Source: Prochlorococcus sp. AG-363-A03 (GTDB lineage Bacteria; Cyanobacteriota; Cyanobacteriia; PCC-6307; Cyanobiaceae). Taken from it: a stretch of 34,086 nt of DNA. The stretch is taken from the NCBI GenBank assembly GCA_003280445.1, contig QCEW01000014.1:1-34086 (forward strand). Direction: 5' to 3'. The stretch's first letter is position 1, and each line of letters opens with the position of its first letter. Below the pieces are notes generated by a model, which worked only from the letters and a program-made list of their open reading frames with translations, searched no databases and was not told where the DNA came from. Shown piece by piece: positions 1,265 to 26,426 of the stretch. A program made the position numbers and the translations under genes.

Positions 1265-1315
1265 TCTCACAAAAAAACCGCCTGTTATGAACAAGGCGGT
1301 TTTTTTTGAGATTAG
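1262..1315. terminator. Long bidirectional hairpin terminator
   Basis: An inverted repeat with arms of about 21 bp. The outer part is TAATCTC/GAGATTA and the inner part is an A run plus CCGCCT pairing with AGGCGG plus a T run, with one bulged C. The A7/T8 tracts give a rho-independent terminator on either strand. On the plus strand it would end any transcript carrying the 47-aa frame. On the minus strand nothing obvious feeds it. Confidence 0.75.
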
Positions 1316-1544
1316 GCGCAAGTGTGTCCTTGTTTCCACTGCGGAGAATCTCTACTCCTCACAATTAAAATTTAGGGCAATCAAGACAAAGGGGAGAAAG
1401 AAGCAGTAAAGTTTGTTAACTGTCACAGAGCAAAACTTTTAAATATTTATGCTTCAAAAAAGACAATAAGTTATATGTAACATGCTGAACACCAAAAATA
1501 GGTAATTATGTTTATAGTATTTTTGTAGCAAAAGCTACCAAAAA

Positions 1545-1604
1545 CGTTCAACTCATCAAACGATGAGCCGCAGTTTGACTCAAGCCAAGGAACGGGGACT
1601 TGAG
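1545..1604 (+). promoter_or_regulatory. Glutamine-II (downstream-peptide) riboswitch
   Basis: The leader of the 33-aa peptide gene has the architecture of the downstream-peptide motif, a glutamine-binding aptamer of cyanobacteria. P1 pairs CGTTC (1545-1549) with GAACG (1590-1594). Inside it is a perfect P2 hairpin, CTCATC (1552-1557)/GATGAG (1562-1567), with loop AAAC. The stretch CTCAAG (1579-1584), inside P1, can pair as a pseudoknot with CTTGAG (1599-1604) downstream of P1. CCAAGGAACG on the 3' side of P1 resembles the conserved segment of the glnA/downstream-peptide family. The ribosome-binding site GGAG (1613-1616) follows 9 nt after the pseudoknot, so ligand-dependent folding could control translation. 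A small GTAGC/GCTAC hairpin (1525-1538) lies before the aptamer. I see no gene in 1316-1524. Family identity is from remembered consensus. Confidence 0.82.
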
Positions 1605-1623
1605 CATATTTCGGAGAAAAAAA

Positions 1624-1725
1624 ATGTCTTTAACCTACAGAGGTCTTAAGTACAACCAGCAAAAAGCAGTTGCAGAAAAGCAGCATGTTCAACTTACTTA
1701 CCGAGGAAAGTCCTACCAAAGCTAG
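1624..1725 (+). CDS. Riboswitch-controlled DUF4278-type micropeptide (33 aa)
   Basis: An ATG at 1624 follows GGAG at a spacing of 7 and opens a 33-residue frame, MSLTYRGLKYNQQ... ending LTYRGKSYQS. The two copies of the LTYRG-x-x-Y motif, about 23 residues apart, are the signature of the small cyanobacterial DUF4278 family. Several downstream peptides of glutamine riboswitches carry this motif. Residues between the repeats are Lys/Gln/Ala-rich. The frame sits alone between the aptamer and a terminator, so it is a monocistronic unit. By analogy with glutamine-regulated inhibitory proteins of cyanobacterial nitrogen metabolism, it could be a small regulator made when cellular glutamine changes. 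That role is inference. Confidence 0.8.
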   Translation: MSLTYRGLKYNQQKAVAEKQHVQLTYRGKSYQS

Positions 1726-1747
1726 AAACAATAAACACATTCACCAA

Positions 1748-1768
1748 AGTCCTTTCAAGGGCTTTTTT
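1748..1768 (+). terminator. Terminator of the micropeptide gene
   Basis: AGTCCTT pairs with AAGGGCT across a two-base loop (one G-T pair) and is followed by T6. It lies 22 nt after the micropeptide stop and just before the 3' end of the opposing membrane-protein gene at 1785. Confidence 0.7.
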
Positions 1769-1784
1769 ATTGCAAACTAATAAA

Positions 1785-26324: not shown

Positions 26325-26426
26325 CTAGAAAGACCTATCAATAAAGTAGAATTTAATTTCAATATGGTCGGCGGGCCATTTTGTATTTCTATCGCACTGT
26401 CCTAAAAGGCATACCGCCATTCAAGC

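Follow-up and report, generated by a model that had tools for sequence, protein, structure and literature searches.

The window analysed here, a stretch of 34,086 nucleotides from Prochlorococcus sp. AG-363-A03, carries a locus that is Prochlorococcus Yfr6, later called Downstream-peptide and later still the type 2 glutamine riboswitch, and that has already been published. It is quite probable, in our judgement, that the riboswitch of this Yfr6 gene turns on a 33-aa DUF4278 peptide when glutamine is plentiful, and that NtcA blocks the promoter at nitrogen shortage. A wider proposal, for which we see the balance tipping only slightly in favor, is that many glutamine-II riboswitches of marine picocyanobacteria, among them that of the window, are firmly coupled to an NtcA operator lying on +1 to +14. 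The micropeptide genes would then be AND gates for low 2-oxoglutarate (at transcription) and high glutamine (at translation), the two ends of GS-GOGAT, and one and the same linking strand would both form the glutamine site and hide the Shine-Dalgarno sequence.

An earlier note on this DNA had described a Glutamine-II riboswitch controlling a solitary micropeptide. Since the literature already covers this locus as well as its type of riboswitch and its family of peptide, the finding as given there is ordinary. It had missed the Yfr6/type 2 identity, four sister copies, the DUF4278 family, the published ON switch and the NtcA-type box at the predicted +1. The present work adds chiefly the match to Yfr6, the placement of the peptide in DUF4278, an NtcA-type box at the predicted start and a candidate expression platform. 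In addition, the one copy for which the start could be placed (locus L068, which appears to be strain SS120) has a box resembling a tested NtcA site on the published start of its transcript. The features to which the text refers are as follows.

1304-1368, minus strand: Cyano-1 (Yfr2) sRNA match, 63.3 bits
1513-1518, plus strand: predicted promoter, -10 element TATAGT, read from the sequence
1525, plus strand: predicted transcription start (G), by homology to the published SS120 Yfr6 5' end at 924018 (PMC1242208)
1525-1538, no strand assigned: GTAGCAAAAGCTAC, NtcA-type palindrome (GTAN8TAC) on the predicted +1 to +14, a putative NtcA operator in a repressing position
1542-1604, plus strand: Glutamine-II riboswitch aptamer (RF01704), 70.0 bits against a cut-off of 33, E 3.9e-15
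1545-1549 (5' strand, CGTTC) and 1590-1594 (3' strand, GAACG), plus strand: PK helix, paired in 34/34 aligned copies
1552-1567, plus strand: hairpin CTCATC-AAAC-GATGAG with arms 1552-1557 and 1562-1567, P1 of the crystal paper, from fold and covariation
1568-1571, plus strand: linking strand CCGC, of which 1569-1571 correspond to C17-G18-C19 of PMC6698751
1579-1604, plus strand: helix CTCAAG (1579-1584) with CTTGAG (1599-1604), P2 of the crystal paper
1612-1616, plus strand: Shine-Dalgarno-like CGGAG; CGGAG or CGGA precedes the ATG in 35/36 listed copies
1624-1725, plus strand: ORF of the 33-aa DUF4278 micropeptide (Yfr6 peptide), from PF14105 and dN/dS
1746-1770, plus strand: intrinsic terminator and T-rich tail, the stem (1746-1765) from a terminator scan

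The Glutamine-II identity is borne out by the Rfam covariance models, run over the whole window: the aptamer exceeded the curated RF01704 cut-off more than twofold with the same pairings that had been read by eye, whereas RF01739 (Glutamine-I riboswitch) gave no match at or above its own cut-off in the same scan. All three pairings that the earlier note had named are in place. Its base pairs were right and its labels differ from those in use: what it called P1, P2 and pseudoknot are PK (CGTTC/GAACG), P1 (the hairpin) and P2 (CTCAAG/CTTGAG) in the crystal structure of PMC6698751. The check that it had proposed, conservation of the pairings among relatives, also came out in its favor, with compensatory changes in both 73 distinct copies and an alignment of 34.

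The PK helix is paired at each of its five positions in 73/73 distinct copies, five of which have C-G for U-A. In the covariation alignment (n=34, the window and 33 relatives hand-chosen from 89 loci) standard pairs account for 95.3% of pair cells and two-sided changes are seen at 13/18 pairs. Neither value was reached in any of 500 column shuffles, the count of further pair types was reached in 11/500, and slid-register controls paired at only 22-51%. Two-sided changes occur at 6/6 counted pairs of the hairpin (88.7% of cells paired), where the counted pairs start one pair outside the arms, at 1551:1568, and omit the innermost, 1557:1562; pair 1551:1568 is open in the window and in 11 other aligned copies. 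The helix 1579-1584/1599-1604 likewise has two-sided changes at 6/6 pairs, with 97.0% of cells paired, and the long-range pair 1571:1595 is C-G in 34/34 copies. The leader (1525-1623) folds with z = -4.24, a stability equalled by 0/200 shuffles. The aptamer structure is well beyond chance.

Mapped onto the numbering of PMC6698751, the residues of the ligand site are present, namely C1545:G1594 (C1:G40), G1570 on G1546:C1593 (G18 on G2:C39) and C1571:G1595 (C19:G41), and G1570 and C1571 are invariant columns. Selective binding of L-glutamine has been reported for relatives of this aptamer (PMC6316151, PMC6698751), and membership of the family suggests that the window aptamer would bind it too. 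A short ORF has the aptamer in its 5' UTR, with the ATG starting 20 nt downstream of the final aptamer base.

At the level of the genome the micropeptide unit is not solitary. Five RF01704 copies, i.e. four sisters of the one described, were found in the organism's own genome (1.37 Mb, 77% complete), and four of the five go with products that resemble DUF4278; one of the four products scores below the Pfam cut-off. Within the genus, at least two RF01704 matches were found in 41/41 genomes searched, and a draw from the family under stricter filters gave a match in 92/151 genomes, the own genome being included in both counts. Five near-complete genomes held 34 matches, one below cut-off.

Other arrangements of the motif were observed in the family. 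A member with a 2.11-Mb genome (G167) has four Glutamine-II copies, of its nine matches, within about 34 kb (C1 753969-787746, loci L118-L120); each of the four has GTAGCAACCGCTAC just upstream and is followed by an ORF that by eye looks DUF4278-like, and three of these ORFs are near-identical. Elsewhere Glutamine-II precedes short ORFs that seem unrelated to DUF4278 (L005 and L057-L059; L045 and L050; L044, L046-L048 and L051). The ORF class of L005 is a 54-aa protein without a Pfam match, that of L045 is a 104-aa protein without a credible one, and the remaining group resembles MVN.YFNG.

The surroundings of the window locus contain further RNA elements. The "bidirectional terminator" of the earlier note, at about 1271-1307, adjoins the 3' end of the opposite-strand Cyano-1 (Yfr2) sRNA match. 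This Cyano-1 region (1271-1368, minus strand) points away from the riboswitch promoter, and Cyano-1 was found upstream of the riboswitch, on the opposite strand, in 18/26 scanned same-genus loci of the 33-aa class. The Rfam scan of the window also returned a cyano-S1 ribosomal protein leader (RF03151) at 26337-26420, with 62.0 bits.

Axmann et al. (2005, PMC1242208) described Yfr6 as an RNA of 244 nt in MED4 and of 239 nt in SS120, and noted that the MED4 RNA might encode 33 aa in a frame opening at nt 97. The SS120 RNA was published as complement(923780..924018) (PMC1242208), and in L068, the presumed SS120 locus, base 924018 is the G of GTAGCAACAGCTAC and 923780 falls inside the T tract after the ORF. 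For the window an RNA of about 245 nt is predicted, with the ORF at nt 100 and both ends placed by homology and prediction, and the aptamer-peptide-terminator unit recognized in the earlier note agrees in length with Yfr6. The organism of the window belongs, we assume, to the same low-light clade as NATL1A. NATL1A is among the Yfr6 sequences that were aligned in 2008 (PMC2518516). Weinberg et al. (2010, PMC2864571) tied yfr6 to the Downstream-peptide motif, and the type 2 switch has been reported as an ON switch (PMC6316151, for a Prochlorococcus example; PMC6698751).

The ORF at 1624-1725 encodes MSLTYRGLKYNQQKAVAEKQHVQLTYRGKSYQS. This peptide, a product of unknown action in the earlier note, is not without a family and belongs to DUF4278 (PF14105; E 4.5e-9, 37.0 bits against a gathering cut-off of 25.3, profile positions 1-34 of 57). 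NCBIfam gave no match for it, and the PDB yielded no sequence relative at E up to 1. Over 350 pairs from 27 same-genus loci with 27 distinct ORFs, mean dN was 0.06 and mean dS 0.56, with differences mostly at third positions, and these comparisons indicate that the peptide is under strong purifying selection. It contains TYRG twice, and nine of its positions are invariant among 18 aligned sequences, some of which come from other copy classes. An AlphaFold2 model of the single peptide (mean pLDDT 66.5, pTM 0.29, one low-confidence helix) was set aside. A stem and T run follow the ORF in all of the 12 loci, out of 27, that were inspected by eye.

DUF4278 covers the N-terminal part of IF17, which is reported to be dispensable for function yet to promote stability (PMC6316151). 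In Pfam the 33-aa peptide matches only DUF4278, and the IF7-like inhibitory region that forms the C-terminal part of IF17 was not found. On the basis of the Pfam match, the peptide is not classed here as a glutamine synthetase inactivating factor.

We transferred the transcription start to G1525 because the SS120 Yfr6 start lies on the palindrome G in L068, where the published 5' end is the G that opens GTAGC. In copies that have the box, TANNNT most often stands so that 6 nt remain before this G (32 matches); a sigma-70 consensus scan of the window did not list the predicted promoter. GTAN8TAC, the NtcA consensus, was found in 68/89 parsed copies from several picocyanobacterial genera, starting 18 to 23 bases before CGTTC, against a mean of 1.1 and a maximum of 5 of 89 in 200 rounds of shuffled upstreams. 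The figure of 68 should not be read as a count of independent events, since best-scoring copies make up most of the 89 loci and close relatives are numerous among them. In the 33-aa class the box is present in 37/38 loci. The exception, L021, keeps GTAG/CTAC with GTA and TAC 6 bases apart (GTAGAAATCTAC) and is the sole one of the 38 without the 8-base spacing. Such a change would disrupt an NtcA site while leaving an RNA hairpin intact; it counts against an operator and makes L021 a natural test between the two readings. Box-less copy classes exist as well, with the box in only 14/30 copies fetched from the five near-complete genomes (34 found), which also counts against the proposal.

An oligonucleotide from MIT9313 glnA with GTAGCAACAGGTAC binds NtcA in ITC and EMSA (PMC5767323), and 13/14 bases of this site are identical to the box of the presumed SS120 locus, L068. 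GTAN8TAC occurs in the 400 bases that precede the matched region at 8/8 amt loci, GTATCAACACCTAC and GTAGCAACGACTAC among them, whereas only 3/8 upstreams in the glnA control have it, which counts against the assignment; both figures are given without a chance control. In Synechocystis, gifA and gifB are reported to be repressed through NtcA sites over the core promoter, centered at -30.5 and -7.5 (PMC6316151), and by this precedent a box at +1 to +14 should repress. From its sequence and these analogies we infer that NtcA binds the box and represses this promoter.

Two patterns were tried as diagnostics and rejected. Bare GTAGN6CTAC occurs at 8 places in the own genome, below the 17 of its reversed-pattern control, and one further GTAGC-N4-GCTAC (G000 C8) sits inside coding sequence. 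The long pattern of box plus CGTTC, allowing up to 3 mismatches in 11 genomes, was outnumbered by its reversed control in every one of them. Exact matches were present in 9/11 genomes; the match in G117 carried 1 mismatch, and G001 had at best a match with 2. An NtcA motif is mentioned for one gene, PMM1846, in PMC6316151. No description of a general +1 NtcA box was found in the portions consulted of the literature on Yfr6, DUF4278, glutamine-II riboswitches and NtcA in Prochlorococcus, and we do not claim that it is unpublished.

With respect to the expression platform, the predicted free fold pairs CCG at 1568-1570, in the linking strand, with CGG at 1612-1614, in the Shine-Dalgarno sequence. 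In the glutamine-bound structure the PK helix takes up the linking strand. When the PK and linking strands were withheld from pairing, predicted Shine-Dalgarno accessibility rose by 0.43 in the window copy (shuffled leaders as high, 0/40), and the mean gain over 16 chosen copies was 0.20 against 0.01 in shuffled leaders. Under the same constraint L024, L062, L077, L080 and L086 gained almost nothing and L087 lost 0.34. Withholding the PK strands alone gave no gain in 50 copies (0.23 to 0.19), and in 36 copies the occlusion of the Shine-Dalgarno sequence in the free state was not above that of shuffled leaders (0.343 vs 0.344). An alternative structure hiding the ribosome-binding site has been proposed (PMC6698751), and CCG 1568-1570 with CGG 1612-1614 is a concrete candidate for it, in which 1568-1570 is predicted to sequester the Shine-Dalgarno sequence. 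This pairing suggests, in a directly testable form, how glutamine might make the ribosome-binding site available.

Other explanations deserve consideration. The 5' palindrome could act in the RNA, as a hairpin protecting the transcript or tuning it, with no NtcA operator and with glutamine as the sole control. We consider this unlikely, even though the palindrome forms the stem-loop GUAGC-AAAA-GCUAC where the transcript is predicted to begin and L021 keeps the stem despite its lost 8-base spacing. Against a hairpin, the fourth base is G and the eleventh is C in all 68 boxes (GTA and TAC themselves being set by the search pattern), and the next pair is a non-pairing C-A in 15/68. Moreover, the near-boxes of L047, L048 and L054 each differ one-sidedly, which breaks the stem, no two-sided change was seen among the boxes and near-boxes, and the palindrome resembles both the tested NtcA site and the amt boxes of relatives. 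The box data disfavor a 5' hairpin as the only reason for the palindrome; we retain it as a rival, and the two roles could coexist.

The two remaining alternatives concern the product and the direction of the switch, and we would be surprised if either were correct. Yfr6 could chiefly be a regulatory RNA, or a toxin-antitoxin-like partner of the antisense Yfr14 as put forward for MED4 in 2008, the peptide being incidental. Levels of Yfr14, an RNA antisense to Yfr6, increase in the course of phage infection, a possible toxin-antitoxin pair was suggested, and the complete Yfr6 gene is conserved, outside the peptide too (PMC2518516). The purifying selection on the peptide speaks against such a role, as does the recurrence of an aptamer with a DUF4278-type ORF at other loci. 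Alternatively, glutamine could stabilize structure beside the Shine-Dalgarno sequence and lower translation, the structured region ending at 1604 and the Shine-Dalgarno sequence starting at 1612. Many translational riboswitches are indeed OFF switches. However, published GFP work has been reported as showing an ON switch (PMC6316151, PMC6698751), and folding predicts release of the Shine-Dalgarno sequence when the PK and linking strands are taken up, though not with PK alone.

We return to the reading in which NtcA and glutamine both control the Yfr6 gene. Transcription would begin at G1525, within the NtcA-type box, if the homology to the SS120 start holds. During nitrogen starvation NtcA loaded with 2-oxoglutarate would occupy the box and block the promoter. 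Under nitrogen sufficiency the RNA would be made, and glutamine would dock C1569-G1570-C1571 into the PK helix; these residues are present, and the binding is expected from the family. Docking would in turn release CGG 1612-1614 from CCG 1568-1570 and allow translation, as the folding predicts and with the ON polarity taken from the literature. In the weakest step, the basic micropeptide may slow nitrogen assimilation as a small partner protein, like its relative IF17; the counterpoint is that it is without the IF7-like half of IF17. Expression of Yfr6 in MED4 is reported to be lower on nitrogen depletion, which favors this explanation; a figure legend of the same paper terms the signal inconstant, nitrogen depletion included (PMC1242208), which counts against it. 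If NtcA does bind the box, nitrogen would be measured twice for each such micropeptide, and a sharp response is predicted in organisms thought to be little regulated.

In conclusion, the locus is best placed by its likeness to known systems. Every helix of the type 2 glutamine riboswitch, or Downstream-peptide RF01704, as reported in PMC2864571, PMC6698751 and PMC6316151, recurs here together with its linking strand and its long-range C-G pair, and the aptamer is without any difference from the published descriptions drawn on here. With the Yfr6 of MED4 and SS120, originally described as a non-coding RNA, it would have in common a 33-aa ORF from about nt 97-100 and a transcript of about 240-245 nt, as predicted for the window, and with that of SS120, if L068 is rightly taken as SS120, the same predicted start base. 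The genomic place differs, since MED4 Yfr6 lies between PMM0659 and PMM0660 and SS120 Yfr6 beside yfr7, whereas the window locus lies beside a Yfr2 sRNA match. The closest logic is that of gifB/IF17 of Synechocystis (PMC6316151), where NtcA repression near the core promoter, a glutamine ON switch and a DUF4278 part in the product are combined in the way proposed here; gifB, however, has a type 1 aptamer and its product an extra IF7-like half, whereas the window has a type 2 aptamer and a 33-aa peptide without that half.
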